Of a stretch of DNA of 64,000 nucleotides, positions 25,006 through 55,082 are shown piece after piece. A program made the position numbers and the translations under genes. Each line of letters opens with the position of its first letter. Positions within the stretch are counted from its first letter, which is position 1. Source of the DNA: Nitrospirota bacterium (GTDB taxonomy: Bacteria > Nitrospirota > Thermodesulfovibrionia > Thermodesulfovibrionales > UBA6898); the NCBI GenBank assembly GCA_021825365.1, contig JAKAHR010000016.1, positions 1-64,000 of the forward strand, written 5' to 3'. The notes under the pieces were generated by a model that saw only the letters and a program-made list of their open reading frames with translations, had not been told where the DNA came from and ran no database searches.

Positions 25006-25006
25006 G

Positions 25007-25375: not shown

Positions 25376-28073
25376 GTGTCTCTCCTGCCGCTAACGTTAT
25401 GGGGACAGTCAGTTGGAAGGAACTCCCCTCGCCATAGACGCTTCCGGCGGTCACCTTCCCTCCCAGGATTTCGGTGGCGATCTTCCTGACCAGGTACAGC
25501 CCCAGCCCGGTCCCCTTGACCTTCAGGGTGAGGGGGGACGGCAGGCGGGTAAAGGCGACGAAAAGCTTCGGGAGGTCTTCCTCTTTGATCCCGATCCCCG
25601 TGTCGGTGACGGTTATCTCCGCGAGATCCGGCTCCGCCGCGTCGTCGTTGCTCCGCACCGGGGCCGTCTGCAGGGTGATTGTGCCCGCATCGGTGAACTT
25701 GACGGCATTGCCCAGGATGTTGACGAGGCACTGGAAAAGCCTGCGTCTGTCCGTATGCATCGCCAGGTGCGGCGAATCGACCCGTACGTCGAGGCCCTTT
25801 GTCTGTATGTCCGTTTTCAGCAGGGCGAGTGCCTCGGCGATCAGGTCATGCAGATCGAAATCCTCCCCGATCGCCTCGATCTTCCCGGCCTCGATCTTCG
25901 AAACGTCGATGACGTCGTTGATGAGGGCAAGGAGGTGCTTCCCCGACCGGAGAACGGTCGCGAGATTCTTCTTCTGCTCCTCCGAGAGGGGGCCGATCCA
26001 TTCATCGAGGATGATGCTCGAAAAACCGATGATCGAATTCAGCGGCGTCCGCAGTTCATGGCTCATGGAGGCGATGAACATGGACTTGAGCCGGTCGAGT
26101 TCCTTGAGTTTGCTGTTGGCCTGCTCCAGCTCCACGGTCTTCTGGTTGAGGTCTTCCACGATGTTCATCAGGGCCCGCTGGCTCTCCCGGAGTTCCCCGC
26201 CCGCCTTCTCCAGATCGGCGGTGCGCTCGGCGACCCTTTGTTCGAGGCTCTCATTGAGCATCCGGATCTCATGTTCCGCCTTCCGGAGTTCCGTGACGTC
26301 GCGGGCCGCGGCAAACACGCCGGCGACGCTCCCCGCTGCATCCCGGAAGAGCGAGGCATTGTACAACACGGGCGTCACATGCGCATCCCTGTGCCGGATC
26401 TCCAGCGGGTAGTCCCTCACGAAACCTTCCCGGAACACCTGCTGGTACCCGGCCTGTGCCTTCTCCGGTTCGGTGAAGTAGTCGAGGAAGTTCGTGCCGA
26501 TGAGTTCGCCCCGGGTGGAGCCGGTCACTTCCTCCGTGGCCGCGTTGACGTCGGTGATCGTGCCGTTTGCATCGATCGTGACGAGGGGATCAAGACTCGC
26601 CTCGATGAGGCTGCGGTTATAGGAACTCGCTGCCTTCAGCTTCTCCTCGGCGCGCTTGAGCTCGGTGATGTCCTGCACCGTACCGCTGGAATGAATTATC
26701 TCCCCGCCGGCATTTCTGACATGCTCGCATTTTTCGTGTACGTAGCGTATTTCTCCGTCCGATCGTCTGACGATGCGATGGATGATGTCATAGGTGAGGG
26801 CGTCCCGTACAGAGGCGGTATAGGCGTTGTTGACGGCCTCCCGGTCATCGGGATGCACGGCCTCCAGAAATGCCTCATAGGTGGCGCCGAAGGATTGCGG
26901 CTCCAACCCGAAGATGCGGTATATTTCATCCGACCACGACAGCCGGTTGTGGAGGAGGTCCAGGTCCCAGCTGCCGACGTGCGCGATACGCTGGGCCTCG
27001 GCGAGTCTCCGCTCGCTGGCGCGCAGCACCTCGTCTGTCTGTCTGCGCTCGGTGATGTCCTCCTTGACCGCCAGGTAGTAGGCGATGGCCCCTTTTTCAT
27101 CCTGGATCGGGGAAATGGATGCCGATTCCCAGTAGAGCTCGCCGTTCTTCTTCCTGTTGCATAACTCTCCGCGCCAGACGGCGCCCGACGTAATACACTT
27201 CCACAGCCTCTCGTATTCCGACGGAGGGGTCAGGCCTGACTTCAGCAGCCGGGGGTTTTGTCCCATCACCTCTTCCGGCGCATAGCCGGTGAGCTGGGTG
27301 AACTTGGGATTGACAAAAACGATCCGGCCGTCCGTATCGGTGATGACGATGGATACGGGGCTCTGCTGCACGGCGTGAGACAATTTTGAAATCGCCTCGT
27401 TCCTCTGCAGCAACTCCGACTGATAGTCGCGAATCGCCTCGCGCATGCCGCGAAAACTGTCCACGAGCACGCCCACCTCGTCACTGCCCGCCTTCGGGAG
27501 GCTGACATCGAATTCTCCGCGGGCCAGCCTCCGCGAGGCATGGGCAAGGAGCGTGACCGGTCTTCGCACTACCCATTCGACCATGATGGCGACCGCGACG
27601 ATATAGCCCGACAGGATGACCAGCAGGGCGGCGAGGAGCTCCTTCTCGCGTTTCTTCATCTCGGACAGCCGCGGCCCGAAGTCGACCCCCACGATGAGCT
27701 TCCCCAGGTATGCATCGAGGTGCTGGATCCGGTGCTCCAGCATGCGGATGTCCTGCCCCGGCCGGGGCCGGGATGCCGCCGCGTCCAGAAGCGGATAGAG
27801 CGACCTGCCGTCCGGATCGAGGAGCCTGATGTCCGTCCAGTCGCTGTTTGTCGTTCCCAGCGCGTCGAGATTTTCATAGAGGGCGTCAAGCTGGTGGGCG
27901 AGCAACAGGGGGATCAGTCCCTCCGCCACACTGTCCAGATGGCGTTCAAGGGACAGGCGGTATGCGGCCTCTGTCCTGGCGAGGGAGTGAGGCATCCAGT
28001 ATCCATAGAGATAGGCGATGAGGAGGGTGCCGGAAAATACAAGGGGCAGCACCACTTTCTTCCGCAGGCTCAT
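25353..28073 (-). CDS. Membrane sensor histidine kinase with HAMP and three PAS domains
   Basis: This 906-residue kinase has a first transmembrane helix (about 8-25), a periplasmic region of about 130 residues, a second helix (about 148-168), a HAMP domain with SRRLARGEFDVSLP, and three PAS domains ending in EDITERR, QDITELKR and ARDVTELRK. A long coiled coil precedes the catalytic core: SMSHELRTPLNSIIGF, NILGNAVKFT, DTGIGI and GTGLGLYLV. It has no receiver of its own; the free receiver gene overlaps its end. The PhnD-like binding protein gene ends five bases before its start, so the binding protein probably presents a ligand to the periplasmic region. Confidence 0.92.
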   Translation of the reverse strand: MSLRKKVVLPLVFSGTLLIAYLYGYWMPHSLARTEAAYRLSLERHLDSVAEGLIPLLLAHQLDALYENLDALGTTNSDWTDIRLLDPDGRSLYPLLDAAASRPRPGQDIRMLEHRIQHLDAYLGKLIVGVDFGPRLSEMKKREKELLAALLVILSGYIVAVAIMVEWVVRRPVTLLAHASRRLARGEFDVSLPKAGSDEVGVLVDSFRGMREAIRDYQSELLQRNEAISKLSHAVQQSPVSIVITDTDGRIVFVNPKFTQLTGYAPEEVMGQNPRLLKSGLTPPSEYERLWKCITSGAVWRGELCNRKKNGELYWESASISPIQDEKGAIAYYLAVKEDITERRQTDEVLRASERRLAEAQRIAHVGSWDLDLLHNRLSWSDEIYRIFGLEPQSFGATYEAFLEAVHPDDREAVNNAYTASVRDALTYDIIHRIVRRSDGEIRYVHEKCEHVRNAGGEIIHSSGTVQDITELKRAEEKLKAASSYNRSLIEASLDPLVTIDANGTITDVNAATEEVTGSTRGELIGTNFLDYFTEPEKAQAGYQQVFREGFVRDYPLEIRHRDAHVTPVLYNASLFRDAAGSVAGVFAAARDVTELRKAEHEIRMLNESLEQRVAERTADLEKAGGELRESQRALMNIVEDLNQKTVELEQANSKLKELDRLKSMFIASMSHELRTPLNSIIGFSSIILDEWIGPLSEEQKKNLATVLRSGKHLLALINDVIDVSKIEAGKIEAIGEDFDLHDLIAEALALLKTDIQTKGLDVRVDSPHLAMHTDRRRLFQCLVNILGNAVKFTDAGTITLQTAPVRSNDDAAEPDLAEITVTDTGIGIKEEDLPKLFVAFTRLPSPLTLKVKGTGLGLYLVRKIATEILGGKVTAGSVYGEGSSFQLTVPITLAAGETHEKSFGH

Positions 28074-28078
28074 CAGGG

Positions 28079-28945
28079 CTACTCCTCGCTCCAGGTCGGG
28101 TCATAGTAGTTCTCAAGGCCCCAGCCGAGCATCGGACGGTAGGCTTCCATGGTGACCGGGACGATTTGCTGTATCGGCACCAGGGAAAGCAAAGCCCTTC
28201 CCTCGGGGGTGTTTCCCATATCAAGAAATGCCTGGCGGACCTTTTCCCTGTCTTCTTTCCGCACCCGGGGATGCGCGGCGACAGGGTGGGACTGCAAGTC
28301 CCGCGTGGTATAGATGACGCGGAGGGCATCACGGATCGCCCCGCTCTGCTCCTGAAGGGTCTTCCCGACCCCTCCGCCGGCGGCGGCAAGACCCTTGGCG
28401 ACATGCAGATACACCGAGCTGTGTGTCTTGACATACAGGGGTTTCACGGTGATATGATGCAGCCGCTCCAGGTCGGCCCGTATCATCAGACATGCCCCCA
28501 GGGCGTTTGGTGAAGGGAAGGCAACAACCTTGCCGGTGAGGTCGCCTATGTTTTGCACCGGGCTGTCCTTGCGCACGACCAGGATTCCGCGCAGGGGCTT
28601 ATTATCCGAGACGAGGGGGATGTACCCCGGGGAAGGGTATCCCTTTACGATATGATACGGGTTCATATAGACGAAGTCGAAGAATCCCTTGAGAAACTCC
28701 CGCTCAAAATCCTGTATCTTGAGTGTGGTGACCAGTTTGAAGGTAAGCCCTGTCCGCCGCTCCAGTTCCCCGATGATCGGCTTCCATATGGCATACAGTT
28801 TCCGCTGCTCGAACTGGGGGACGACCGCAAACGTATACTCAGGGGATACGGCAGCCTCGGGCGGTGGCGGCGTCAGCCCCCGCGGGCAGATGACAGAGAT
28901 GACGCCTGTTGCGATGATCAAGAGGAGCGCGACGCTTCTGTTCAT
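28079..28945 (-). CDS. PhnD-like periplasmic solute-binding protein
   Basis: This 288-residue protein begins with a signal sequence (VALLLIIATGVISVI) and has the fold of phosphate/phosphonate-type binding proteins: YTFAVVPQFEQRKLYAIWKP, GFFDFVYMNPYHIV, 'GKVVAFPSPNALGACLMIRADL' and a C-terminal cap. PhnD-type proteins that stand next to kinases rather than permeases are known sensor subunits. No ABC permease or ATPase is nearby; the next gene is a membrane kinase. GGAGGA precedes the ATG. The ligand is unknown, with oxyanions such as phosphite or arsenite-like species possible by analogy to ArxX/AioX proteins. Confidence 0.85.
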   Translation of the reverse strand: MNRSVALLLIIATGVISVICPRGLTPPPPEAAVSPEYTFAVVPQFEQRKLYAIWKPIIGELERRTGLTFKLVTTLKIQDFEREFLKGFFDFVYMNPYHIVKGYPSPGYIPLVSDNKPLRGILVVRKDSPVQNIGDLTGKVVAFPSPNALGACLMIRADLERLHHITVKPLYVKTHSSVYLHVAKGLAAAGGGVGKTLQEQSGAIRDALRVIYTTRDLQSHPVAAHPRVRKEDREKVRQAFLDMGNTPEGRALLSLVPIQQIVPVTMEAYRPMLGWGLENYYDPTWSEE

Positions 28946-41732: not shown

Positions 41733-43730
41733 TTACCCCGCGAGGCAGATGCGGTTGCGGCCTTCCCGCTTTGCGCGATACAACGCTGCATCGGCCGCCT
41801 CGTGAAGGTCGGCGGCGGTGCGGTACTCCGGGAATGTCGCGATCCCGCAGCTGAAGGACACGTAGAACTCCTGCCCCCGGCACTGGTGGCATATCCTGAA
41901 GAAATCCTCCCGGATCGTATCCAGTATCGCCTTGGCCGCGGCGCTGTCGGCCCCTTCAAGCAGGACGGAGAACTCCTCCCCGCCGTACCGGCCGACGACG
42001 TCCGTCTTGCGCAGCCGCTGCAGCAGGAGCCGGGAGAGGCCCTTCAGGACCTGGTCTCCGGTGGCATGGCCGTAGGTGTCATTGACCGCCTTGAAATGGT
42101 CGATGTCGATCAGCGCATAGGCGAGGCCGGAATTCCCGCGTTCGGCCCGGGCGACCCCCATCTGCAGCTGTTCCTTCGCCTTCGTATGATTGAGGAGACC
42201 GGTGAGGCTGTCGCGCACCATGAAGGAGTGCAGCAGCCGCGAACGCTCCACCCGGGACCTGACCGAAGAGACGAGATGGCTGTCCTTGATCGGCTTGGTC
42301 AGGAAGTCATCGCCCCCGAGGCTCATGGCGGCAAGCTGTTTCTCAACGTCCGTCTCTGCGGAAAGGAAGACGATGGGGATGCTGACAAAGGACGACATCT
42401 GCCGGATCACCTTCGAAAGCTCGATGCCGCTGCTGTCGGGCATATACATGTCCATCAGGATCAGGTCAGGCCTGAAGGCGAAGAGCATCTCCATCATCTG
42501 CAGGGGGTCGGAGGTGATCTCGGTCCTCATGCCGGCGGACTTCAGGATCAGGTCATACCGGGAGGCGAGCGTGATGTCGTCATCGACGATGAGGATGCGG
42601 TAGGCGTCCTCGTCGCTGCGAGCGGTCAATGCGTCCAGTTTGTCTATCAGGCTGCTGGTATCAACGGACCGGGTGAAGTAGGCCTCGCCTCCGGCCCTCA
42701 CCGCGCTCAGGCGCGCGGCGAAATCCTCGGTCTCGGAAAGGAAGATGACCGGCGCCTTGCCCGTCCGTCCGGCCATGCCGGAGATGATCTCCGCAATCGG
42801 CAGCCCGTCCGCCCGGAGCGACATGTCCGCAATGATGGCCGCGGGCGCTCTCCGCGCAACCTCTTCTCTCAGTTCGTCGGCCCGCAGGCTGCAGACCCGA
42901 TAGCCGAAATACCCCAGTTGCTGGCTCAGACCCTGAAGGGCGGGGCTGTCGCCGACGACAAGGTAGATCAGCCGGTCGTCGTCCGCATTGCGGACAGGGG
43001 CCTCGCAGGCAATCTTCTCTCCCTCTGCACCGTCATCCGGCCGGGGCGCGACTGCAGCGGCGGCCAGGCCCCTGACGAGTTCTTCGATATGCCGCCGGTC
43101 TTCACCGGCCTGCAGGGAAGGGCTTCGCTTGAGGGCGAGTTCGAGAAGATGGGCCGCTGCGCTGACCTCGGGGAACCCGAACGTCGCGCCCGAGCCGGCC
43201 AGCTTATGGACCAGGAGAAGCATCTCCTTCGCCTGCGCGCCTTCTCCCTCCTCCGGCATCCTTTGCCAGAGCGCCTCTATCTCCCTGACCTTTGCGGGGA
43301 GTTCCGCTGCGTACACCTCTGTCAGGGCCTGCAGATTTGCCGCCGCCTCCTCGCGCGCCTTTTCCCGGTGCGCCAGGACCTCCCCGATCTTCCCGGGAAA
43401 GGTCATCGCATCGAAAGGCTTGGCGATGACCCCCGAGGCGCCGAGCCTGGTATAGGAATCGATCTCATGCTGTTCCGTGCTCGCCGTGAGAAAGACGACC
43501 GGGACGCGGGACATCCCCGGAAGCCTGCGGATCTCGGCCAGGGTCTGGATGCCGTCCATATCAGGCATGTTGACGTCGAGGATGACGATGTCGGGCCTGA
43601 ACATGCTGACCGCGCGGAGCGCCTCGGCGCCGGAACCGCAGATATGCGTCTCGTGGCCGCCGACCCGTTCAAGCGTTATCCGGGCCAGCTTCTGGATGGA
43701 GGTATCGTCGTCTGCCAGCAGGACCCGCAT
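41733..43730 (-). CDS. Diguanylate cyclase with REC-Hpt-REC-REC-GGDEF layout
   Basis: This 665-residue protein has a first receiver (VLLADDDTSIQKL, LDVNMPDMDG, IAKPFDA), an Hpt domain with the phosphoacceptor HKLAGSGATFGF, a degenerate second receiver (GDSP in place of the acidic pair; Arg in place of the conserved Lys in YFTRSVD), a complete third receiver (LIVDDDITLAS, LMDMYMPDSSG, LTKPIKD) and a GGDEF domain. The active motif GGEEF is intact and the inhibitory site RKTD lies five residues before it, so it should make c-di-GMP under product control. Its ATG shares one base with the stop of the protease gene. It is the last gene of the hydrogenase-signalling operon. Confidence 0.92.
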   Translation of the reverse strand: MRVLLADDDTSIQKLARITLERVGGHETHICGSGAEALRAVSMFRPDIVILDVNMPDMDGIQTLAEIRRLPGMSRVPVVFLTASTEQHEIDSYTRLGASGVIAKPFDAMTFPGKIGEVLAHREKAREEAAANLQALTEVYAAELPAKVREIEALWQRMPEEGEGAQAKEMLLLVHKLAGSGATFGFPEVSAAAHLLELALKRSPSLQAGEDRRHIEELVRGLAAAAVAPRPDDGAEGEKIACEAPVRNADDDRLIYLVVGDSPALQGLSQQLGYFGYRVCSLRADELREEVARRAPAAIIADMSLRADGLPIAEIISGMAGRTGKAPVIFLSETEDFAARLSAVRAGGEAYFTRSVDTSSLIDKLDALTARSDEDAYRILIVDDDITLASRYDLILKSAGMRTEITSDPLQMMEMLFAFRPDLILMDMYMPDSSGIELSKVIRQMSSFVSIPIVFLSAETDVEKQLAAMSLGGDDFLTKPIKDSHLVSSVRSRVERSRLLHSFMVRDSLTGLLNHTKAKEQLQMGVARAERGNSGLAYALIDIDHFKAVNDTYGHATGDQVLKGLSRLLLQRLRKTDVVGRYGGEEFSVLLEGADSAAAKAILDTIREDFFRICHQCRGQEFYVSFSCGIATFPEYRTAADLHEAADAALYRAKREGRNRICLAG

Positions 43731-44227
43731 CAGCAGACCGCCTGTCCGTCGGCAGCTTCCGGACGGACCATCTCTTCTATTATCCGGACCGCCTTTTCGA
43801 CCGCAGGGACGACTCCGGGAGTGAGGCACTCACCGTACCCCGAGCAATCGGCTGCAAGGACGCCGATAATCGTTGTCTCCGGCCTCTTCCACAGGGCCGC
43901 CGTCATGTCGAGTATGTCTCCCACCCTGCCGAGGTGTCCGGACAGGAAATGGTCGCCCTGCGTCTCCTCTTCCCTGATGATCCGTATGTCTCCGGGAGAC
44001 CCGTCGCCGACAAGGGCGTCGACGATGATCAGCCTGTCGACGCCTTCCAGATAGGTGACGAGGTCAAGGCCTGCGGTGCCCCCGTCGAGGAGCCGCACGG
44101 ATGAGGGGAGGCCGGCCCCCTCCAGCCGCCGTATGACGTGGATCCCCACGCCGTCGTCTCTCCTGAACAGATTGCCTACGCCGAGAACAAGGGTCACGCC
44201 CTGTCCCTCCTCACCGATTTTTCTCAT
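43730..44227 (-). CDS. NiFe hydrogenase maturation protease
   Basis: This 165-residue protein belongs to the HycI/HyaD/FrcD protease family, which trims the C-terminus of the large subunit after nickel is inserted. Seen: LVLGVGNLFRRDDGVGIHV with the first nickel-binding acidic residue, LLDGGTAGLD, 'RLIIVDALVGDGSPG' with the second Asp and SGHLGRVGD with the His. It lies two genes after the large subunit, whose 25-residue tail behind DPCxxCxxH is a fitting substrate. Confidence 0.92.
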   Translation of the reverse strand: MRKIGEEGQGVTLVLGVGNLFRRDDGVGIHVIRRLEGAGLPSSVRLLDGGTAGLDLVTYLEGVDRLIIVDALVGDGSPGDIRIIREEETQGDHFLSGHLGRVGDILDMTAALWKRPETTIIGVLAADCSGYGECLTPGVVPAVEKAVRIIEEMVRPEAADGQAVC

Positions 44228-44275
44228 GGTTCGCGCGACCGCCGACGGACTTCCCGCAGAACGTTATCCGGCGGA

Positions 44276-46654
44276 CTACAGGCCCATCATCTTCTTGGCC
44301 TTTTCGATCTTTTCCTCCGACCCGGCCTCCGACATGATGATGAACAATATGTTCTCGAGGCTCTTTTCGAAGCGCAGGGTCCTCACCATATCGTGGCGGT
44401 CCGAAAGGGCGGAATCGACGATGACCATGTCCGGCCGTGTGCTTACCGCCTTTTCGATGCCTTCTTCGCCGCTGTATGCCTCGGTTATGTGGTAGCCCTT
44501 TGTCTCGAGGACGTCCTTCAGCGTCCTGACGGTGGATATGTCTTCATCGATGACGAGGACCTTCTTCCGCGACGTGCCCCTCGAAAGCAGGTTCTCGATG
44601 CTCCTGAGCAGCTCGACCGTATCGACCGGCTTGGTAAGGTAGTTGTCAATGCCCAGCCGGTAGCCGCGGTCCTTGTCCTCGACGATCGAGAGGATGATGA
44701 TCGGTATATCGCCGGTGAGGGGGTTGTTTTTGAGCACGGCTGCGACATCGAACCCGCTGATCCCCGGCATCATGACATCGAGGGTGATGATATCCGGCCT
44801 CTTCTTCCTGATCTCCGAGATCGCCTGCATACCGTCCTTCGCCTCTGTCACCTCATAGCCGTTTTCTTCGAGCACCTGCCGCAGGAAGTTGCGGATATGG
44901 TCCTCGTCGTCCACGACGAGGACGCATTTCTTGCCCCCTGCCGCGGCCTCGGCCGCGGCAGGGATACTGCTTTCAAAATGACGCAGGAGTCTTTCGACGG
45001 ATGCCGGCTCGGTCACACTCTCAGGGATCGCAACCGGCAGGGTGAAGGAGAAGGTGCTGCCCCCGCCCCTGCGGCTCTCCGCCCATATCCTGCCGCCGTG
45101 GTGTTCGACGATCTCCTTGCAGATCGGCAGGCCGAGGCCCGTGCCTTTCGGCTTGTCCGTCAGGGTATCGCCGACCTGCTTGAATTTCTCGAAGACCCTC
45201 GGCAGGTCTTCTTCGTCTATGCCCATGCCCGAGTCCGCCACGCTCACCCGGATCACGTCCGCCTCTTTCCGGGCGCTGCAGGTGATCGAGCCGGCGTCCG
45301 TAAACTTGACGGCATTGGACAACAGGTTGATCACCACCTGCATGAGCCGGTCGCCGTCCCCCGTCACGGGCGCCAGGTCCGCGCCGACGTCCGTGAAGAG
45401 GGGGAGCCCCTTCTGCTGAAACAGGGATGAGGTCGCCGCGGTCGCCCGCCGGATGATCTCGTCGATGAACACCGGCTCCTTCTTCCAGTCGACCTTTCCG
45501 GCCTCCATCTTCGCGATGTCGAGGACGTCGTTGATGAGGGAGGTGAGCCTTTCTCCCTCCGACACGATGATGCTGAGGTTGTCGCCTATCTGCCTGACCG
45601 CCCTGAGCGCCTTCTTGTCGTCCGTGCGGACGAGGGGGGCGATGACGTCTTCGAACTTCTTCCTGATCAGTTTCGCAAACCCCAGCACCGACGTCAGCGG
45701 CGTCCGCAGCTCATGTGAGACCGTTGAGATGAAATCCGTCTTCATCCGGTCGACTTCCCATTCCTTGGTGATGTCCCGCAGCACGGTGATGATGCCGAGG
45801 AACTCGCTTTCATTGCTGATGGAGTAGGCGTTTGCCCGGAAGACCCGGCCGGAAAGCCGGAAGTCCCTCTGGATGATGTCCGCACGGCCGCCCCTGATGA
45901 CCGCATCGATCATGCCGTTGATGTCCATGTCCCTGAAGACGTCCGCTATATACTTTCCGGCGACGCTCCCCGGCGCCAGCCCGAACATGCGCTCGACCGC
46001 CGGGTTTGCCAGCATGATCGACTTGTCGGCGGACGTGACGACGAGGCCGTCCGTCATGTTCGTGATGACCGCATTGAGTTTGTTTCTTTCGTTGTCGAGC
46101 GCCCGCGTCGTCTTGCGTATCCTCTCGTACGACAGGGCATTGTTCACCGAGAGGGCGATGTTCGGGGTGAGGGCGCTGATGAAGGAGAGTATCTCGAAGC
46201 TCGTCGCCGTATCGTCCGCAACGAGGAGAACGCTGTTGACGGTCCCCTCGTAGATGCAGGGAAAGGCGGCGAGCGTCAGGACGGGCCTGCCGGAATCGAG
46301 GCCGAAGCCGGAGACATCGCCTCCTTCCTTCATGACCATATCCCTTGCGGCGGCCGCCTCCGCGACGATGCCGCCTTCGGCAGGGGAAACACCGGCAGAC
46401 AGCCCCTCCGCCCCCAGGACCGGGAAGGAGCCGTTGTCCCGCAGATAGACCGCTCCGGCCTTGATCCCCGTTGTCTGCCTCAGCCTGCCGATGATCGACG
46501 AGGCCAGTTTCGGCAGGTCCAGGGCAGACGACAGCATCTGGGCGATATCGGCAAAATGGCCCTGCATCCTGACGGCGTCCTGCAGCGAGCGACAGCGGGC
46601 CTCGAGTTCACGGTTGCGGTCCTGGAGGGTCTGGCTGTCTTTATCGTTTCCCAT
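44276..46654 (-). CDS. Soluble hybrid histidine kinase: GAF-PAS-HisKA-HATPase-REC-REC
   Basis: This 792-residue protein has a coiled-coil start, a GAF-like domain (about 30-175), a PAS domain (NAVITNMTDGLVVTSADK through TVLRDITKE), the box STVSHELRTPLTSVLGF, ATPase motifs NLLSNAVKFTD, DSGMGI and GTGLGLPI, one complete receiver (VLVVDDEDHIRNFL, LDVMMPGISG, LTKPVDT) and a second, shorter one (VLVIDEDISTVRTL, VDSALSD) that stops before its last strand. No membrane segment is seen. It starts directly after the stop of the 82-residue gene. The position inside a hydrogenase operon suggests that its GAF or PAS domain reads the redox or hydrogen status. Confidence 0.92.
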   Translation of the reverse strand: MGNDKDSQTLQDRNRELEARCRSLQDAVRMQGHFADIAQMLSSALDLPKLASSIIGRLRQTTGIKAGAVYLRDNGSFPVLGAEGLSAGVSPAEGGIVAEAAAARDMVMKEGGDVSGFGLDSGRPVLTLAAFPCIYEGTVNSVLLVADDTATSFEILSFISALTPNIALSVNNALSYERIRKTTRALDNERNKLNAVITNMTDGLVVTSADKSIMLANPAVERMFGLAPGSVAGKYIADVFRDMDINGMIDAVIRGGRADIIQRDFRLSGRVFRANAYSISNESEFLGIITVLRDITKEWEVDRMKTDFISTVSHELRTPLTSVLGFAKLIRKKFEDVIAPLVRTDDKKALRAVRQIGDNLSIIVSEGERLTSLINDVLDIAKMEAGKVDWKKEPVFIDEIIRRATAATSSLFQQKGLPLFTDVGADLAPVTGDGDRLMQVVINLLSNAVKFTDAGSITCSARKEADVIRVSVADSGMGIDEEDLPRVFEKFKQVGDTLTDKPKGTGLGLPICKEIVEHHGGRIWAESRRGGGSTFSFTLPVAIPESVTEPASVERLLRHFESSIPAAAEAAAGGKKCVLVVDDEDHIRNFLRQVLEENGYEVTEAKDGMQAISEIRKKRPDIITLDVMMPGISGFDVAAVLKNNPLTGDIPIIILSIVEDKDRGYRLGIDNYLTKPVDTVELLRSIENLLSRGTSRKKVLVIDEDISTVRTLKDVLETKGYHITEAYSGEEGIEKAVSTRPDMVIVDSALSDRHDMVRTLRFEKSLENILFIIMSEAGSEEKIEKAKKMMGL

Positions 46655-46903
46655 CTATGACCCCAGATACTTGAGCCACTTCGAGACCCTTTCCTGCACT
46701 TCGAGGCTGCCCCACATGCCGAGCAGTTTATCGTCCCTGCCGAGACATTGGACGAAGGTCCTGCATTTCGTCTCCTCGTCGGAGTCCCGGATCTCCGCAG
46801 CAACCTTCATCTTCGCCTTGTTCAGGATAAGGTTGGCCATCGACGCCCCGAAGAGCGACTCTATGTCAGGCTTTATCCTGTCTCTCAGGAGGTCAAGCTC
46901 CAT
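46655..46903 (-). CDS. Small unknown protein between hydrogenase and hybrid kinase
   Basis: This 82-residue protein is not recognised. It is mainly helical and charged, with two cysteines (KCRTFVQCLG) eight or so residues apart and a WGSLEVQERVSKWLKYLG tail. There is no signal or membrane helix. GGAG precedes the ATG, and the kinase ATG follows its stop codon directly, so the two are surely translated together. A link between the hydrogenase and the kinase is a reasonable guess, based only on place. Confidence 0.65.
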   Translation of the reverse strand: MELDLLRDRIKPDIESLFGASMANLILNKAKMKVAAEIRDSDEETKCRTFVQCLGRDDKLLGMWGSLEVQERVSKWLKYLGS

Positions 46904-46948
46904 CCCCGTTGCTCCTTGTCGCGTCGCCGGCCGGTTTGCACGGTCCCA

Positions 46949-48370
46949 TCAATATTTCCTGAGTACATCGATGCATTCACCCGCGGCTGAATACAGGCGC
47001 ACCTCAAGAGGCATCTTGCCCACCGCGTGGGTCGAGCACGACAGGCAGGGATCATAGCACCGTATCGCCATCTCGACCCGGTTCAGCATGCCCTCCCTCA
47101 CCCTGCCTCCCTTGATGTACTTCCTGGCGACGTCCTTCACCGACAGGTCGATCGCCCTGTTGTTATGCGCCGTGGCGACGATAAAATTCGCCTTTGTCAC
47201 GCGGCCGTCGTCATCCGCCTGGTAGTGGTGGATAAGGGTCCCCCGCGGGGCCTCGACAACGCCGACCCCCTCACCGGCCTTCCTTTCCGCCTTAATCCGC
47301 ACGTCCTTTGAAACGATCTCATCGTCGGACAGGAGTTCCCGCGCCCTCTCGGAGGCGTACAGGATTTCGATCATCCGCGCGACATGGTAGTAGAGGTTTT
47401 CATTCACCGTATCGCCCATCGCCCTGAAGACCCTGAACCTCTCCGCGGCAGCCGGTGTGCCGACGGAGGAGGAGACATTCAGCCGCGCCAGCGGTCCGAC
47501 CCGGTATATCCCGTTCGGCCACCCCTCTTTCTTGTAGTAGGGGAATTTGAGCCATGTGTCATCCTCGACATGCTCGGCGATATAGTCGAGATAGTCCCTG
47601 CCCGCGAACTCGGCGACCTTCCGGTTTTCGGCATTCTTCAGGACGATCGGACCGTCATAGAATTCGAGGCTGCCGCTGTTCGTGAGGCCCATGTGCTTGG
47701 TGCGGAAATTCCCGAGGCTCGGCAGCTTGTCAGCGTACGATTCCAGCATGCCGTACGCGGCGTCCACCGCCGATTCGGACAGGGACACCGCCTCTCCGGC
47801 GTCCCTGAGGAGGTGGAACCTGTCCTCATGCGCAAGCGCCATGCTCATGCCGCCGGGAATGGCGGTGACCGGGTGTATCGGCCGTCCGCCGACCCTGTCG
47901 ATGATCGTCTGGCCTATCTTCCGCAGGCGCAATGCCCTCTTCGCCAGGTCGGGGTTTTTTTCGTAGAGACCGATGAGGCTCCTCTTCTCGGGGTCTGAAT
48001 CCGGACCGAGGATGAAGTCCGGCGCCGAGAGGAAGAAGAAATGCAGGGCATGGGACTGGATGATCTGCCCCATATGCATCAGCTCCCGGAGCTTCTTCGC
48101 AGCGGGCGGGATGACGACGCCGAGCAGGTCGTCGCATGCCTTGGCAGCGGCAAGGTGGTGGCTCACCGGGCAGATCCCGCAGATCCGGGTGGTGATGACC
48201 GGCATGTCCCAGAGCATCCTGCCCTCGCAGAACTTCTCGAAGCCGCGGAACTCCGTCACATGGAAACGTGCGTCAGACACCCGGCCGTCGTCGTCGAGAT
48301 GGATGGTCACCTTGCCGTGGCCTTCGACCCTGGTGACAGGTTCGATCTCTATCTTCTTCTTCTTCATCAT
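46949..48370 (-). CDS. NiFe hydrogenase large subunit (group 3-like, MvhA/HoxH-type)
   Basis: This 473-residue catalytic subunit holds the NiFe centre. The first metal motif is RICGICPVSHH (Cys64 and Cys67), the second DPCLSCSTH (Cys442 and Cys445). It starts with IEIEPVTRVEGHGKV, the classic large-subunit N-terminus. The tail after His448 is 25 residues and would be removed by the protease encoded downstream, so this is an enzyme that matures normally, unlike regulatory HupV-type proteins. Sequence style is that of cytoplasmic group 3 enzymes. The ATG at 48370 overlaps the small-subunit stop (ATGA) and follows GGAGG. Confidence 0.93.
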   Translation of the reverse strand: MMKKKKIEIEPVTRVEGHGKVTIHLDDDGRVSDARFHVTEFRGFEKFCEGRMLWDMPVITTRICGICPVSHHLAAAKACDDLLGVVIPPAAKKLRELMHMGQIIQSHALHFFFLSAPDFILGPDSDPEKRSLIGLYEKNPDLAKRALRLRKIGQTIIDRVGGRPIHPVTAIPGGMSMALAHEDRFHLLRDAGEAVSLSESAVDAAYGMLESYADKLPSLGNFRTKHMGLTNSGSLEFYDGPIVLKNAENRKVAEFAGRDYLDYIAEHVEDDTWLKFPYYKKEGWPNGIYRVGPLARLNVSSSVGTPAAAERFRVFRAMGDTVNENLYYHVARMIEILYASERARELLSDDEIVSKDVRIKAERKAGEGVGVVEAPRGTLIHHYQADDDGRVTKANFIVATAHNNRAIDLSVKDVARKYIKGGRVREGMLNRVEMAIRCYDPCLSCSTHAVGKMPLEVRLYSAAGECIDVLRKY

Positions 48371-49260
48371 TTTTCCTCCCGGTACGGATATATCGATACC
48401 GGCAGCGAATATCGGTACCCGACGCCCACCACGTCTTCCATGAACATCATCGCACCGGCGGGCAGGATCGAGGCGAGGGCATTGATCATCTTGGCGCCCT
48501 GCTCCAGCGCCCCGGTCGTCGGTCCCATGCACCCCCTGCACGGAACGTTGCCCTTCACGCAGCGGGCCTCGCATCCCTCCCGGGTGGCGGGGCCCATGCA
48601 GATCAGTCCCTGTTCGAGAAAGCACCGGTCCGGATCGATGACATCGAGCTCCATGATCGCGTGGACCGCATTCGTCACGAATTCCCTCTTCGGCACGTAC
48701 ATCTCCTGGTGTTTCCTGTTGCATTCATGGCAGAGGTTCTTCTGCGGTATGACCGGCTTCTTCCCGCCGATGATGTCCTTCAGGACCGAACGGATCATCT
48801 TCGGGGTAGGGGGGCAGCCGGGCAGTTCGTAATCAACGGCTATCTCCTGGTGGACCGCCCTGACATGCGGAAGCATCGCCGGGATGTCCGGAGACGACGG
48901 GACCTTGCCGCGCACCGTGCTCTCGGTCTCGACATACGCCCTCTGCAGCACGTCGTCCAGGCTGAAGAGGTTCCTCAGGCCGTTGATCCCGCCGAAGGCG
49001 GCGCATGTTCCAAAGGCGAGGATCTTTCCCGCCTTCTTCCTGAACTCCCTGGCCACCGCGACATTCGACGTGTTGCAGAGCGCGCCGTCGAGTATGCCGA
49101 GGTCGACCTTCGGCACGGACTTCACGTCGTTTATCGGCGAGCGGACGATGTCGATCGAATCGAGCAGGGAGAGGAGGTCCTCATCCAGGTCGAGGATCGC
49201 CATATGGCACCCGAAGCATCCCTGGAGGTGTCCGGTCGCAACGCGCAGCTTCTTCATCAT
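48367..49260 (-). CDS. NiFe hydrogenase small subunit (MvhG-like)
   Basis: This 297-residue iron-sulfur subunit carries electrons away from the NiFe centre. The proximal cluster ligands are in QGCFGCHMA (Cys15, Cys18), 'FGTCAAFGG' and LPGCPPTP. Further cysteines follow in NLCHECNRKHQ, 'RCFLEQGLICMGPATREGCEARC' segments and VPCRGCMGPT, enough for two more clusters. There is no twin-arginine signal, so the enzyme is cytoplasmic. The ATG at 49260 overlaps the stop of the HdrA-like gene and follows GGGGAGGGG. Confidence 0.93.
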   Translation of the reverse strand: MMKKLRVATGHLQGCFGCHMAILDLDEDLLSLLDSIDIVRSPINDVKSVPKVDLGILDGALCNTSNVAVAREFRKKAGKILAFGTCAAFGGINGLRNLFSLDDVLQRAYVETESTVRGKVPSSPDIPAMLPHVRAVHQEIAVDYELPGCPPTPKMIRSVLKDIIGGKKPVIPQKNLCHECNRKHQEMYVPKREFVTNAVHAIMELDVIDPDRCFLEQGLICMGPATREGCEARCVKGNVPCRGCMGPTTGALEQGAKMINALASILPAGAMMFMEDVVGVGYRYSLPVSIYPYREEK

Positions 49261-50858
49261 CCCCTCCCCATCTTCCTGAGATGTTCTATGAAATCCACCG
49301 CGCCCCTGACGCAGGAATTTCCGTCGCAGTTGCTCACCCCGAATATGCGGAGGCGCTCGGGCGATATCCCCCTGCTGTCGAGGACCGCGCGGAACAGGTT
49401 GGCGCGCCTGTCGAGGTCCGTATTGCCGACGATGTTGAGGCAGCGGTCGTCCCCGCATTTGCAGATGACGACCCCGCTGAAGCCTTCCCTGAAGGCCTCG
49501 ATAATGAACTGGGTGTCGATCCTGCCGGCGCACCGGACCGAAAGAGGCATGACACTCGTCGGATACTCCATCCCCTCCCTGCCGGCGAAATCCAGCGACT
49601 GGTACCCGCACCCCTCGCAGAGGAGATACAACAGCCTGATGCCGTTGGGAGGATTATAGGAAGCCAGTATCCTGATCGCCGAAAGGAGGTATTCCGTGCT
49701 GGCGCTCACCTGGTCCCGCGCACCCGTCGGGCAGGCCGAGACGCAGTTGCCGCAGCCGACGCACCTCTTGATGTTCGTTGTCGAAAGCTTGCTCGAGGGG
49801 TCGAGCTCGGCGGCGTGGAAAAGGCAGGTCTTGATGCAGGTGCCGCAGCCGCCGCAGATCTCCTGGTTCACCTCGGAGACGAAGAGCTCGTGGGTGATCG
49901 AGTGGCGCTTCAGGAGCGTGTCCAAAGACAGCGCGGCCGAGTCGGCGCAGGCGATGACGGAGGCCGGAGGCGTATCGTGCGGGATGAGAAAGATGCCCGG
50001 GTTCACCGTCTCGGTCACCGCCGTGTCGGAGAAGATCGTACGGAAATGGCCCTCGTTGCTCCTCTCGAGCCGCAGGAAAGGGTACAGCTCGCCGGTGTAT
50101 GCCAGGTCGTCTCCGATCGCCACGATAATTCCGCCTGCCCGCAGCCTGACGCCCCCCTTCAGGTGTATCCTGAAATTCCCCGCATAGCCGTACAGCTCCT
50201 CAAGGGGCGCGACATGGAAGACGGCATGCGGATGGTTCTTCACATAGGCGAGGGTCGGCATCGCATCGGCGGAGGCCGGAGTCGCTTTCTCCTGCCGCGG
50301 CCTGTCGACGAAGGCTACGTGAAACCCTCTTTCAAGGAGCCTCTGGGCCGCATAGATGCCGCCGGAGGTCGTGCCGATGACCGCAACCGTCTTCTTCGGC
50401 GCCACCTCGATCATGCCGACATCATGGGAGAGCCTCGCCTTCTCGATCCCGACAGCTATCAGCACGGACGCCTTCCTGGTCGCCTCGAGGGGCGTGGCCC
50501 GGTGGGGCAGGGCCGTCTGTTCCTTGAGGTTGACGATCGCTATCCTGTTTGCATTCATGCCCTCTTCCTGCAGGACGCGCAGCAGCAGATCCCCGTTTCG
50601 GGCCGAACGGTAAAACAGGGGGGATTCCCCGGCGAGCACAACAGAGTCGAGCCTCTCCTCCCTCACGACGCTCCGGACCGCGTTGATGCTTTCCGAGCTA
50701 TGCAGGTTGTCGTAGATCCGGACGGGCAGGCTCTTCCTGAAGCGCGCCGACAGGGACTTCAGGTCAAGCACGCTGCTTATCGCGCCGTCCGCTCCGGAGA
50801 GGAAGAGGCCGGTCGTCGCCCCGGCGTGGCCGCGCGCTTTCTTCGCCCGGTCACTCAA
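49257..50858 (-). CDS. HdrA-like flavoprotein fused to an MvhD-type electron-transfer domain
   Basis: This 533-residue protein joins three parts. The first (about 1-320) is HdrA-like with a nucleotide-binding loop (VAVIGTTSGGIYAAQRL). The second has two 4Fe-4S motifs, CGGCGTCIKTC and CVGCGNCVSACP. The third (about 405-533) is an MvhD/FrhD domain with CEGCGYQSL, RCAGRIDTQF, CKCGDDRC and NCDGNSC, a set of paired cysteines for a 2Fe-2S cluster. It would link the hydrogenase to a flavin site. HdrB and HdrC are absent from the window, so the electron acceptor is not the usual heterodisulfide reductase. Its start overlaps the receiver gene by eight bases. Confidence 0.88.
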   Translation of the reverse strand: MSDRAKKARGHAGATTGLFLSGADGAISSVLDLKSLSARFRKSLPVRIYDNLHSSESINAVRSVVREERLDSVVLAGESPLFYRSARNGDLLLRVLQEEGMNANRIAIVNLKEQTALPHRATPLEATRKASVLIAVGIEKARLSHDVGMIEVAPKKTVAVIGTTSGGIYAAQRLLERGFHVAFVDRPRQEKATPASADAMPTLAYVKNHPHAVFHVAPLEELYGYAGNFRIHLKGGVRLRAGGIIVAIGDDLAYTGELYPFLRLERSNEGHFRTIFSDTAVTETVNPGIFLIPHDTPPASVIACADSAALSLDTLLKRHSITHELFVSEVNQEICGGCGTCIKTCLFHAAELDPSSKLSTTNIKRCVGCGNCVSACPTGARDQVSASTEYLLSAIRILASYNPPNGIRLLYLLCEGCGYQSLDFAGREGMEYPTSVMPLSVRCAGRIDTQFIIEAFREGFSGVVICKCGDDRCLNIVGNTDLDRRANLFRAVLDSRGISPERLRIFGVSNCDGNSCVRGAVDFIEHLRKMGRG

Positions 50859-51228
50859 GGCCCAGCACCTCGACCGTCTTGGCGTGAATCTCGTCAGGGT
50901 TGAAGGGTTTGGTCATGTAGATATCGGCACCGACCTCCAGCCCTTTCTTCTTGTCGAACTCCTGGCCCTTGGCCGTCAGCATGATGATGTATACGTCCCG
51001 CATGTTCAGTTCGTTCTTGACCGTCCTGCAGACGTCGAAGCCGTTTACCTTGGGCATCATGACATCGAGGAACACCAGATCAGGCTTGTCCGCTTTTATG
51101 ATCTCGAGGGCCTTTTCGCCGTCTTCGGCGATCAGGAGATCGACCCCCGAATCCTCCAGGTCTTCGAGCGTCTGCTCGAGCAGCATGCGTATATGCGGTT
51201 CGTCGTCTACGATCAATACCTTTGGCAT
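50851..51228 (-). CDS. Single-domain response regulator
   Basis: This 125-residue protein is a lone receiver: VLIVDDEPHIRMLLEQTL, LDVMMPKVNGFDV, MLTAKGQEFD and YMTKPFNPDE. All receiver residues (acidic pair, phospho-Asp, Thr, Lys) are present. It overlaps the start of the HdrA-like gene by eight bases, which ties it to hydrogenase expression, and lies 44 bases after the ATPase-receiver gene. Confidence 0.9.
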   Translation of the reverse strand: MPKVLIVDDEPHIRMLLEQTLEDLEDSGVDLLIAEDGEKALEIIKADKPDLVFLDVMMPKVNGFDVCRTVKNELNMRDVYIIMLTAKGQEFDKKKGLEVGADIYMTKPFNPDEIHAKTVEVLGLE

Positions 51229-51272
51229 CTCATCTCTCCCTGCATAATGTTTTCACGGAACAGGCCGCTGCG

Positions 51273-53528
51273 TCAGTTTCCCATCCTCTTCATGAGTCTC
51301 TTCACCCGGGCCTGCAGCTCGGTATAGTCGAACGGTTTTGTTATGTAATCGTCGGTGCCGAACGTAAACCCCTTCAGCTTGTCCTCGACCGAATCACGCG
51401 AGGAAAGTATCACCACGGGGATGAACATCGTGCTGACCTTGCTTCTGAGTTCCCTGATGAGCTCGTACCCGTCCATCACCGGCATGTTGATGTCCGTGAT
51501 GATGAGGCCGGGGTTGATGTTCCGGGCCGCCTCAAGAGCCTCCCTGCCGTTTTGCGCGGTGTGCACCTCGACGTCGAGGGGCCGGAGGGCGAGTTCCACC
51601 ATCTTCAGGATGCCGAATTCATCATCAACGATCAGGACCCTGGCCTTCTCCTCCGCGCCGGGCGCCTTCTCCTTTTCGCGCGGGCTTCCGCAGAAGGGGC
51701 AGAAGGCCCATCCCTCCTCGAGGCCGGAAGAGCACTTCCTGCAGGAGGTCTCCGGCATGGTCCCGCAATAGGGGCAGTCGGCTTCCGCATGCATCCTTCC
51801 GCAATTGGGGCAGGAGGCGCCGGGGGTGTCATCCACGGTCACCGCCCGGAGCACCTCATCGATGGTGGTCTTTCCGTTGTAGACATGCTCGAGGGCCGCC
51901 TCATACAGGGTGCGCATCCCCTCCTTGCGGGAGGCATCCCGCAGTTCGCCGGCAGAGGCGCGGCCTGATATGAGTTTCCTGAGGGAAGGGGTGATCTCCA
52001 TGATCTCCACGACCGCCAGTCTTCCCCGGTATCCGGTATTGTTGCACTTCGCGCAGCCCTTGCCCCTCACAAACGACGCCTTCCTGTCGATGCCGGGCAG
52101 GGCGGCGAAGGCGTCCTCGTCCGGGGCGTATTTTACCGCGCAATGGGGGCAGATCACCCGGAGCAGCCTCTGGGCGACGACGCAGTGCAGGGACGATGAG
52201 ATGAGGTACGGCTCGACCCCGATATCGTACAGCCTCGTTATCGTGGCAGCCGTGCCGTTTGTGTGGAGCGTGCTGAGGACTAGATGGCCGGTATTGGACG
52301 CCCTGAAGGCGACGTCGGCTGTCTCGATGTCCCGTATCTCGCCCACCATGACAACGTCCGGGTCCTGCCGGAGTATCGAACGGAGGGCGTTGGCAAAGGT
52401 GAGGCCGGCCTTTTCATTCACATGCACCTGGGTGATGCCCTCCAGTTCGTATTCGACCGGGTCCTCCACCGTCACGATATTGGTGCCCTCGGAGCGCAGT
52501 TCAGTCAGCATGCCGTGCAGGGTGGTGGTCTTGCCGCTGCCGGTGGGGCCTGTCATGAGGATCATGCCCTGCGGCCGGGACATCGCCGTCCTGAGCCTTT
52601 CCAGGTCGGCGCCGGAGAGGCCCGAGAGGGGCAGTTCGATCGCCTTTTCGCCCGGCTTCAGGAGCCTCATCACGACCTTTTCCCCCAGGTGCGTGGGAAG
52701 TGTCGAGACCCTGACGTCGAGCTGGACATTCCCGACCTTCAGCTTCATCCCGCCGTCCTGCGGGGTCTTCCGGTTGCTGATGTCGAGCTTCGACATGATC
52801 TTTACCCGTGAGGCGATCGCCGAGTGCATCCACTTGGGTATCTGGGTGTGCGTCGCCAGGACGCCGTCGATCCTGAACCGCACGGTAACCGCCTTCTGGC
52901 CGGGCTCTATGTGGATGTCGCTCGCGCGGCAGTCCAGCGCCTCCCTGATGAAGAGGTTTACCAGCTTTATCGCGGGCGCAAGCATCTGCTCGTCAAGCTC
53001 CTCCCGCTTGCCGGTCATGAACGCCTCCTCGATCCGCTTGTCGCCGTGGTCCTGCACGAACTCGACCTCGGCCACGGCTCCGGAGGATACGCTGTCCAGC
53101 ACCCGGGCGAGGTCCGTGCTCATGTCGAAGCACCGCTGCATGGCCGCCATCAGCTGGCTCTTCGATGTCACGTGCGGAACCGGGGTCAGGCCCGTAATGA
53201 AGGAGAACTCCTGCAGGGTGCCGATGTCGAGCGGGTCGAGCATCGCGACCTTCACCTTCCTGCCCTCTTTTTCGAACGGCATGCACATGTATTTGAGCGC
53301 GTGGTCTTTCGTGAATTTCCCGAGCGCATCGGGCATGATGTCGGAAAGGTCGGCCCTCCTGATCTTCAGCCCGTCCGCAAAGATGTCGACTATCCTGTCT
53401 TCGTCGACGTCCAGGGTGTTATATATCTCGACAACGAAACTGCGGCCTTTTGCCCGGGTCCTGATGCCGTTCAGGACGTCCGCGCTCACAATGCCTTCCT
53501 TTATCAGAAGATCGCTTACCGTGTCCAT
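51273..53528 (-). CDS. GspE/PilB-type ATPase with zinc ribbons and a C-terminal receiver
   Basis: This 751-residue protein begins with an MshEN-like domain (about 1-140), followed by the ATPase of type IV pilus and type II secretion systems: RASDIHIEP, Walker A GPTGSGKTTT (about 330), 'VVMVGEIRDIETAD' (Walker B), TLHTNG and the tetracysteine pair CPHC and CAKC. Beyond this, where PilB ends, are paired cysteines (CPNCGRMH, CPYCGT, CRKCSS, CPFCGSP) making two zinc ribbons, and then a full receiver (VLIVDDEFGILKM, ITDINMPVMDG, ITKPFD). No pilus genes are nearby. Phosphorylation of the receiver could switch the motor. Confidence 0.92.
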   Translation of the reverse strand: MDTVSDLLIKEGIVSADVLNGIRTRAKGRSFVVEIYNTLDVDEDRIVDIFADGLKIRRADLSDIMPDALGKFTKDHALKYMCMPFEKEGRKVKVAMLDPLDIGTLQEFSFITGLTPVPHVTSKSQLMAAMQRCFDMSTDLARVLDSVSSGAVAEVEFVQDHGDKRIEEAFMTGKREELDEQMLAPAIKLVNLFIREALDCRASDIHIEPGQKAVTVRFRIDGVLATHTQIPKWMHSAIASRVKIMSKLDISNRKTPQDGGMKLKVGNVQLDVRVSTLPTHLGEKVVMRLLKPGEKAIELPLSGLSGADLERLRTAMSRPQGMILMTGPTGSGKTTTLHGMLTELRSEGTNIVTVEDPVEYELEGITQVHVNEKAGLTFANALRSILRQDPDVVMVGEIRDIETADVAFRASNTGHLVLSTLHTNGTAATITRLYDIGVEPYLISSSLHCVVAQRLLRVICPHCAVKYAPDEDAFAALPGIDRKASFVRGKGCAKCNNTGYRGRLAVVEIMEITPSLRKLISGRASAGELRDASRKEGMRTLYEAALEHVYNGKTTIDEVLRAVTVDDTPGASCPNCGRMHAEADCPYCGTMPETSCRKCSSGLEEGWAFCPFCGSPREKEKAPGAEEKARVLIVDDEFGILKMVELALRPLDVEVHTAQNGREALEAARNINPGLIITDINMPVMDGYELIRELRSKVSTMFIPVVILSSRDSVEDKLKGFTFGTDDYITKPFDYTELQARVKRLMKRMGN

Positions 53529-53570
53529 CGTTCCTCCTTATGAAATGAAACCCCCTGCACGTCCCTGTCT

Positions 53571-55082
53571 TCAGCGCAACGGCAGCGTTATGACGAAGTT
53601 TGCCCCGTTGAACCCTTCGACTCCCGAGTAGTTGCCGTTTACCGCCCTGATCGAGCCGCCGTGCTCTTCGACGATCTTCCTCGTGACGGCGAGGCCGAGG
53701 CCGGTGCCTGATTTCTTGCCCTTCGTGACGAACGGCTCGAACAATGAATCTATGATATCATACGGGATACCTCCGCCCGTATCCGCGAAGACCATCTCCG
53801 AATCAGGGCCGGAGGGCCGAAGCAATATCAGGAAGCGCCCTCCGTTGTGGAGTTCCTCCCGCGCATTGCCGGCGATATTGAACACCACCCGCTTGAACCG
53901 TTCGACGTCGAGCAGCAGGTCGCCCGAATAGTCCACCCTCCTGACGACCGCGATGTCCCTGGCTGCCATGTCTTTTTCTATGTACGGGATGAGAGAGCCG
54001 ATGAACTCTTCCGCACCGATCCTCTCCAGCGTGAGTCGGGTCTTGAAACCCCGGGTAAAGGAGAGGAGGTCTTCCACCATGCCGACCAGCCTGTCCACCT
54101 CCTTGATGATCATGCCGCTGTATTCCTTGCGCTCGTCCTTCGTAAAATCCAGGTCTCCCAGCAGGCCGGCAAAGCCCTTGATGGTGGTCATCGGGTTTTT
54201 TATGTCGTGGATGATGCCGGCCGCCATCTGGCCCACGGCCGTAAATTTCTCGTCCCTGATCTTCTCCTCGATCAGGCGCGCGTTTTCGATCACCTCGGCG
54301 ATGACGATGCACATGGAGTTGAGGAGGGCCTCGTCTTCGCTCGTGAAGACGGAATCGGCCTTGTTCCGCAGCGTCAGGATCCCGATCGTCGAGTCCTTTA
54401 CCTTGAGGGGCAGACAGAGAAGCGAATAGATCAGCACGCTGCCCGTCCTGACGAATCCCGGATGCTCGGCAGGTTCATTGGCGATGATGGGCAGGCCGGT
54501 TTCGAGCACCCTGCCGGCGATGCCCTCCATCGTCTTCAGCTCGAGGGGCTCGTTGACCGCACGACCTGATATCGCCTTGAGCACGAACGTCCCGGTCCTG
54601 GAGTCCGCCACCATGACCGAGCAGGATTCGACGCGGATGATCTCATGCACCCGCGCCGTGGCGGTACAGAGGATGTCGGACACATCCACCGAGGAGCTCA
54701 TGATCTTGTTGATCTCGGCGAGAAAACTCATCTCGCGGTATTTCTGGAGCGTATGCTCGATCATCGTCTTCTTTTCGACGATCTCCCGGAGGTAGAGTCC
54801 GAAAAGGGCCGCGGCGGCGGCGAGGGAGCCTGACGCCCCCGCAAGGCGGCCGACGGTCCTGCCGTCAACCACGACGTCGGCGCCGGCGCAGCCGTCTCCG
54901 GCCGCAAATCCCGGCGATGCATGCAGTGCCCTGCCGTCACTGCCGGAAAAGGAGAGCGGACCTGCCATGACAGACAGCATGTCGCAGATCTGAGAGACGT
55001 CTTTCTTCCTCAGCACCATGTTCCTCGTTTCCTCCGCAGGGCATTCTCCGGGCAGGGCCGGGTTTTCGGCCGGCGGCAGCAT
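53571..55082 (-). CDS. Soluble GAF-domain histidine kinase
   Basis: This 503-residue kinase has an N-terminal region of about 110 residues without clear homology, a GAF domain (about 130-285; 'ARVHEIIRVESCSVMVAD', 'GIAGRVLETGLPIIANEP', 'LCLPLKVKDSTIGILTL'), the box GIIHDIKNPMTTIKGF, and ATPase motifs FNIAGNAREEL, DTGGGIP and GTGLGLAVTRKI. It has no receiver of its own. It is the first gene of the operon; the next encodes the ATPase with a receiver, a likely partner. ATG 55082 has GGAGG eight bases ahead; ATG 55019 with GAGG is an alternative. Confidence 0.9.
   Translation of the reverse strand: MLPPAENPALPGECPAEETRNMVLRKKDVSQICDMLSVMAGPLSFSGSDGRALHASPGFAAGDGCAGADVVVDGRTVGRLAGASGSLAAAAALFGLYLREIVEKKTMIEHTLQKYREMSFLAEINKIMSSSVDVSDILCTATARVHEIIRVESCSVMVADSRTGTFVLKAISGRAVNEPLELKTMEGIAGRVLETGLPIIANEPAEHPGFVRTGSVLIYSLLCLPLKVKDSTIGILTLRNKADSVFTSEDEALLNSMCIVIAEVIENARLIEEKIRDEKFTAVGQMAAGIIHDIKNPMTTIKGFAGLLGDLDFTKDERKEYSGMIIKEVDRLVGMVEDLLSFTRGFKTRLTLERIGAEEFIGSLIPYIEKDMAARDIAVVRRVDYSGDLLLDVERFKRVVFNIAGNAREELHNGGRFLILLRPSGPDSEMVFADTGGGIPYDIIDSLFEPFVTKGKKSGTGLGLAVTRKIVEEHGGSIRAVNGNYSGVEGFNGANFVITLPLR

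Follow-up and report, generated by a model that had tools for sequence, protein, structure and literature searches.

What does a [NiFe] hydrogenase do in an operon that otherwise encodes histidine kinases, a diguanylate cyclase and a PilB-type motor ATPase? The question is raised by ten genes in the window analysed here, a stretch of 64,000 bases (bases 1-64000 of the 80,195-base contig C35) from a genome of 3.26 Mb in 52 contigs (G000), the closest matches of which are Nitrospirota metagenome-assembled genomes (MAGs). Established hydrogen sensing by [NiFe] hydrogenases is that of HoxBC/HupUV, which controls hydrogenase genes. We read the operon as a phosphorelay that responds to hydrogen or redox state and takes its input from an exchangeable hydrogenase, and we put the probability of this reading at roughly 0.58. 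Several hydrogenase lineages were found beside the same receiver and kinase within one bacterial order, and the candidate outputs are a cyclic di-GMP (c-di-GMP) enzyme and a receiver-fused PilB.

The genes are, in the order of transcription:

53571-55082, minus strand: HK1, first gene of the operon, cytosolic GAF histidine kinase of 503 amino acids (GAF-HisKA-HATPase_c)
51273-53528, minus strand: PilB-REC, 751 amino acids, MshEN-like, T2SSE with intact Walker A GPTGSGKT, zinc ribbon and C-terminal receiver
50851-51228, minus strand: free receiver (REC), 125 amino acids (Response_reg)
49257-50858, minus strand: HdrA-MvhD, a truncated HdrA fused to MvhD (FlpD), 533 amino acids (Fer4-FlpD)
48367-49260, minus strand: HydS, small subunit of 297 amino acids, MvhG/VhuG-like (Oxidored_q6; NF045875, 235.7 bits)
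46949-48370, minus strand: HydL, [NiFe] large subunit (NiFeSe_Hases) with the motifs RICGICPVSH and DPCLSCSTH and a C-terminal extension
46655-46903, minus strand: u82, predicted four-helix protein of 82 residues without a Pfam family (AlphaFold2 confidence score, pLDDT, 91.8)
44276-46654, minus strand: HK2, PAS hybrid kinase of 792 amino acids (PAS-HisKA-HATPase-REC-REC)
43730-44227, minus strand: maturation protease of the HycI/HybD type, 165 amino acids (HycI PF01750, TIGR00072)
41733-43730, minus strand: diguanylate cyclase, REC-Hpt-REC-REC-GGDEF by Pfam

An earlier note on this DNA had described these genes as one operon. All ten open reading frames (ORFs) were recovered on the minus strand at 41733-55082, and no gap between them exceeds 48 bases. 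Of the nine junctions, four are overlaps and one is abutting. The gaps measure 42 bases (HK1/PilB-REC), 44 (PilB-REC/REC), 45 (HydL/u82) and 48 (HK2/protease), and u82 abuts HK2. Overlaps are of 8 bases at REC/HdrA-MvhD (with a TTG start), of 1-4 bases each at HdrA-MvhD/HydS and HydS/HydL, and of 1 base at protease/GGDEF (TGATG). No terminator-like site was found on the minus strand at any gene border of the operon. Pfam and NCBIfam upheld the domain calls with two corrections, one in HK2 and one in the HdrA part of HdrA-MvhD. The GAF domain that had been assigned to the N-terminal part of HK2 was not recognised by Pfam even at E<=5, and PAS alone was found there. Because a hydropathy check of seven operon products gave no clear membrane span, the assembly is probably cytosolic.

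Homologues of all ten proteins were found in collinear order, at 49-70% identity, in G260, which represents a second genus of the window's family. Outside the ten-gene block, G260 and the window had no matches except generic kinases, and the flanks are unrelated. Three extra genes stand between PilB-REC and the free receiver in G260; their products are a PilB-like protein that lacks PilB's Walker A motif, an ATPase resembling PilT, and a further receiver. In G356, an independent MAG of a third genus, seven genes (PilB-REC/REC/HdrA-MvhD/HydS/HydL/u82/HK2) are arranged likewise on a contig whose two ends fall within PilB-REC and within HK2. The collinearity in G260 with unrelated flanks, together with the seven genes in G356, confirms that the ten-gene operon is real and neither chance nor misassembly. 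Nearly all genomes compared, and all those that matter here, are MAGs, and key contigs are short (7.2 kb in G356, 8.5 kb in G357, 4.1 kb in G107 and 5.7 kb in G314), which would favour unrelated genes having been joined by chance or by an assembly error. This is, however, extremely improbable, since independent MAGs from three genera agree in gene order without conserved flanks and hydrogenases are enriched near the receiver, as described below.

HydL keeps both Ni-Fe motifs and has a 25-residue extension after DPCLSCSTH, HydS has twelve conserved Cys and no Tat-type signal, and all Ni-Fe and Fe-S ligand Cys are present. Since the extension, the ligand Cys and a protease gene in the operon are all there, the hydrogenase should mature, in agreement with the earlier note. 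The best solved relative of HydL was the large subunit of Acetomicrobium HydABCSL (7t2r, 544 bits); others were MvhA (477 bits) and subunit A of the F420-non-reducing hydrogenase (448 bits). HydL formed its own clade with five relatives (support 85/99), beside the full-HdrA Mvh clade and the HoxH/3d clade, in a tree that included HoxG, HoxC, HoxH and Nitrospirota enzymes and has only moderately supported deep branches. By its sequence, the window hydrogenase is a [NiFe] enzyme, probably cytosolic, that branches separately next to groups 3c and 3d.

Its partner protein had been labelled HdrA-MvhD, a label of which the MvhD part stood (PF02662, 106 bits) and the full HdrA did not. The protein aligns with HdrA residues 51-235 and 499-633, plus MvhD, and misses about 260 HdrA residues (about 236-498), a stretch that comprises further ferredoxin-type sites and a large part of the flavin domain. 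Two 4Fe-4S motifs are kept, and GxGxxG is altered. The loss of the flavin domain is read from the sequence alignment alone, and the AlphaFold2 model (mean pLDDT 56.7) was too poor to judge the flavin site. Because of the missing residues, bifurcation as by HdrABC-Mvh is unlikely for the window enzyme. A search within the order and of GTDB contigs, with one genome per species, found the truncated HdrA-MvhD in just six species: that of the window and five others, all Nitrospirota. The joining of this hydrogenase to signalling genes, as proposed for the window, was seen in three genomes (G000, G356 and G260); in G107, G136 and G156 the core of HdrA-MvhD/HydS/HydL/u82/protease has no signalling gene attached, and the split follows bacterial family. 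The hydrogenase core and the signalling module are separable.

The module of HK1, PilB-REC, REC and HK2 was found in nine genomes of the order. The PilB-REC family, 57-82% identical to the window protein, also comprised nine genomes, all of this order, and an HK1 homologue lies upstream of PilB-REC wherever the contig extends that far, hydrogenase present or not. The three genomes named above have the truncated-HdrA hydrogenase in the module. In G357 an MvhG/VhuA-like (MvhAG-like) pair without HdrA follows the receiver, and the contig ends there. In G122 a HydS/HydL pair has PilB-REC with a DnaJ-like gene after it on one side and a PAS hybrid kinase on the other. The last residues of the G122 large subunit are DPCLVCTVH, with no extension; it groups with HoxC/HupV (100/98), and the best plasmid matches of this hydrogenase were loci annotated as HupU protein. 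The HupV/HoxC type is a known hydrogen sensor that acts through a histidine kinase (PMC10073562, PMC5037454), and HoxC, the large subunit of the sensor signalling via the kinase HoxJ, lacks the C-terminal extension (PMC10073562). G107 and G314, both of which carry the module, have HupV/HoxC-type enzymes without extension, arranged as REC-HydS-HydL-HK2 on short contigs. It is a guess, suggested by a kinase cut short at one contig end and part of a receiver at the other, that C22 and C43 of G107 and C267 and C24 of G314 each form one operon. G358 keeps HK1/PilB-REC/REC/u82/HK2/GGDEF and is without HdrA-MvhD, both hydrogenase subunits and the protease. We count this joint loss of hydrogenase and protease, with the remaining module and u82 persisting, in favour of a hydrogenase input.

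As the hydrogenase varies while the receiver and kinase stay, and by analogy with HoxBC-HoxJ, the hydrogenase is probably the input that tells the cell of the presence of hydrogen. The tie between the hydrogenase, the phosphorelay and c-di-GMP that had been proposed from the window was strengthened by the several hydrogenases beside the same receiver and kinase. A bolder form of this reading, which we offer only tentatively and would sooner doubt than adopt, is plug-in sensing, in which several unrelated [NiFe] groups, catalytic 3c/3d-side enzymes among them, were recruited as exchangeable hydrogen inputs; the single phosphorelay that they feed would phosphorylate a pilus motor ATPase directly and so place surface motility or attachment under hydrogen control. 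The small protein u82 is encoded at each of the six truncated-HdrA loci, and G358 has it too; because G358 keeps it without a hydrogenase, u82 accompanies the signalling genes and not the hydrogenase alone. A fold search with u82 gave no significant match and no PDB match.

The free receiver was also used as a marker, and 42 loci were found in 35 of the 177 genomes of the order. Among the 40 of these loci that were examined in the receiver tree, 14 had a NiFe large subunit encoded within 12 kb on the same contig, where about 2 were expected. These 14 were three truncated-HdrA, one MvhAG-like, three HupV-like and seven canonical Mvh (3c) hydrogenases. The probability of at least 14 of 42 was about 2e-9 (binomial at p of about 0.045 per locus), under an approximate null that assumes about five hydrogenases per 2.8-Mb genome, the upper end of the counts, and with receiver loci that are not independent, linkages being common to related genomes. 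The receiver tree, poorly resolved in places, gave 10 label changes by parsimony. Many cassettes carry a GAF-HD-GYP protein with the motif intact or nearly so, and G014 instead has Hpt-REC-GGDEF; c-di-GMP turnover is a recurrent neighbour of the receiver cassettes. The cassette marked by the free receiver is widespread in the order and consists of a hybrid kinase, a dCache kinase, a GAF-HD-GYP protein and the receiver (L122-L153).

Several observations weigh against the hydrogenase as input. The modules of G358 and G272 (the latter with a dCache kinase in the place of HK2) have no hydrogenase, and the core without signalling genes in G107, G136 and G156 can work as a plain enzyme. The window enzyme retains its extension and catalytic residues, unlike the group 2b sensors, and the link of the hydrogenase contigs of G107 and G314 to their PilB-REC contigs is conjectural. 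The stand-alone cores would also suit a metabolic hydrogenase that is merely co-expressed with surface-behaviour genes, passing electrons from hydrogen to a soluble acceptor while the kinases sense another cue and the operon synchronises the enzyme with an attached lifestyle. The retained extension, protease and full set of ligands would fit such an enzyme, as would the seven canonical 3c operons among the 14 wider linkages, some of which are divergent to the cassette. We nevertheless consider this alternative unlikely, although it is the strongest of those weighed here: a HupV-like sensor hydrogenase of non-catalytic type, without extension, occupies the equivalent place in G122, hydrogenases are repeatedly linked to the same receiver family, and the flavin domain of the HdrA partner is largely gone, which makes the normal 3c reaction unlikely.

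On the output side, the link to c-di-GMP proposed earlier was supported, but an action of c-di-GMP on the operon's own PilB is improbable. The cyclase has an intact GG(D/E)EF signature (GGEEF) and RxxD I-site, RKTDVVGRYGGEEF, and its Hpt histidine is intact. Regulation of PilB-REC by this cyclase's c-di-GMP through MshEN was rejected, as none of the eight PilB-REC proteins that have an N-terminus contains the MshEN c-di-GMP motif (tandem RLGxx..Q, relaxed published motif); c-di-GMP therefore probably does not act on PilB-REC. Both copies of the motif are present in the canonical PilB of the window genome. The operon holds neither a PilC nor a pilin gene, and the canonical pilB-pilT-pilC locus lies elsewhere, on contig C29.

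Relatives of the module (L036:3950-6841, L098:2061-4549, L097:2219-3592 and L101:14468-17348) encode PilB-like proteins in which MshEN is joined to a degenerate T2SSE part that lacks PilB's Walker A; in most cases genes for a PilT-like ATPase and a receiver come next. The window is without such genes. A DnaJ-domain protein of 216-226 amino acids directly follows PilB-REC in two genomes (L098:4565-5242, L099:8731-9378). A wider T2SSE group with an N-terminal receiver (L102-L106, 38-39% identical) was set aside as a different system; these fusions sit in receiver/kinase arrays of other genomes in the order.

Taken as a hydrogen- or redox-responsive phosphorelay, the operon could work as follows. 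The cytosolic [NiFe] hydrogenase would equilibrate with hydrogen, its Fe-S chain running into the truncated HdrA-MvhD. The PAS kinase HK2 would contact the assembly, perhaps via u82, and read its redox or binding state, as HoxJ reads HoxBC. Phosphate would then pass from the receivers of HK2 to Hpt and from there to the free receiver, to PilB-REC and to the receivers of the diguanylate cyclase, a relay in keeping with the domains present. In this scheme c-di-GMP would act on the canonical PilB, and PilB-REC would be set by phosphorylation. We infer hydrogen control of a motor, and the output would be a surface behaviour, such as pilus extension or attachment, matched to the hydrogen supply. 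The signal could also run in reverse, with the relay or c-di-GMP controlling the hydrogenase assembly, for example if electron flow were gated by u82 or by the free receiver. The overlap of the free receiver gene with HdrA-MvhD and the position of u82 between HydL and HK2 are compatible with this, and the actual sensing could be done by GAF and PAS domains. We judge it improbable, because the module persists without a hydrogenase in G358 and G272, so that hydrogenase control is not its sole task, and because G122 has a sensor-type hydrogenase. With this system, direct tests can be made of whether bacteria of the subsurface choose their position according to hydrogen.

The closest functional parallel may be group 2b (HoxBC-HoxJ-HoxA/HupUV-HupT), in which a cytosolic hydrogenase and a PAS histidine kinase, here HK2, also share one operon; the G122, G107 and G314 relatives have enzymes of exactly this type. 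The window enzyme, however, lies on the 3c/3d side, and only that of G122 clustered with HoxC/HupV. The window also differs in its extension and protease (the G122, G107 and G314 enzymes are without extension), its HdrA-MvhD partner, its Hpt relay, and its predicted outputs, c-di-GMP and PilB-REC instead of a DNA-binding regulator. Hydrogenase genes are likewise linked to kinases or GGDEF proteins in the putative diguanylate cyclase-linked group 2c and in [FeFe] groups C1-C3, for which hydrogen sensing has been proposed (PMC5037454); the window hydrogenase is of another lineage, and its operon includes a receiver-fused pilus ATPase. Links from hydrogen to c-di-GMP are so far only putative (PMC5037454). 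With the F420-non-reducing, bifurcating group 3c Mvh-Hdr the window shares MvhA/MvhG-type subunits and the MvhD domain, but its clade is beside and not inside the full-HdrA Mvh clade, HdrA is truncated in the fusion, and the operon has signalling genes and no HdrB or HdrC. Unlike Acetomicrobium HydABCSL, the window has no HydABC, and its small subunit is of the longer MvhG type. PilB-REC resembles PilB/MshE extension ATPases in its MshEN-T2SSE order and intact Walker A, and departs from them in the lost MshEN motif, the added C-terminal receiver and the lack of a PilC or pilin gene in the operon. By analogy, the window system would work like a group 2b or putative 2c sensor while belonging neither to 2b, by tree and extension, nor to 3c Mvh-Hdr, by HdrA content. 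Finding a 3c-like hydrogenase in a genome does not by itself establish a bifurcating metabolism. Literature searches on group 2c with kinases, sensory hydrogenases with c-di-GMP, and hydrogenase with PilB and a receiver did not find this arrangement, most subscription journals being outside their coverage.

The window has further kinase genes outside the operon, as two more long ORFs on the minus strand at 22978-28100 resemble HK2 of G260 (29-35% identity). Elsewhere in the same genome, another hydrogenase, a group 1-type [NiFe] large subunit (G000:C36:20805-22457; L053, L156), carries TGA in frame where the L1 motif has its second Cys (RFCGV-TGA-TTVH). This TGA was conserved in all 13 family copies read (relatives L157-L180), and a SelB gene is present. 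Five genomes have a paralogue, 50-52% identical, with two TGAs, RI-TGA-GV-TGA-TTVH. These L1 codons are candidate selenocysteines at a site other than the known L2 position.

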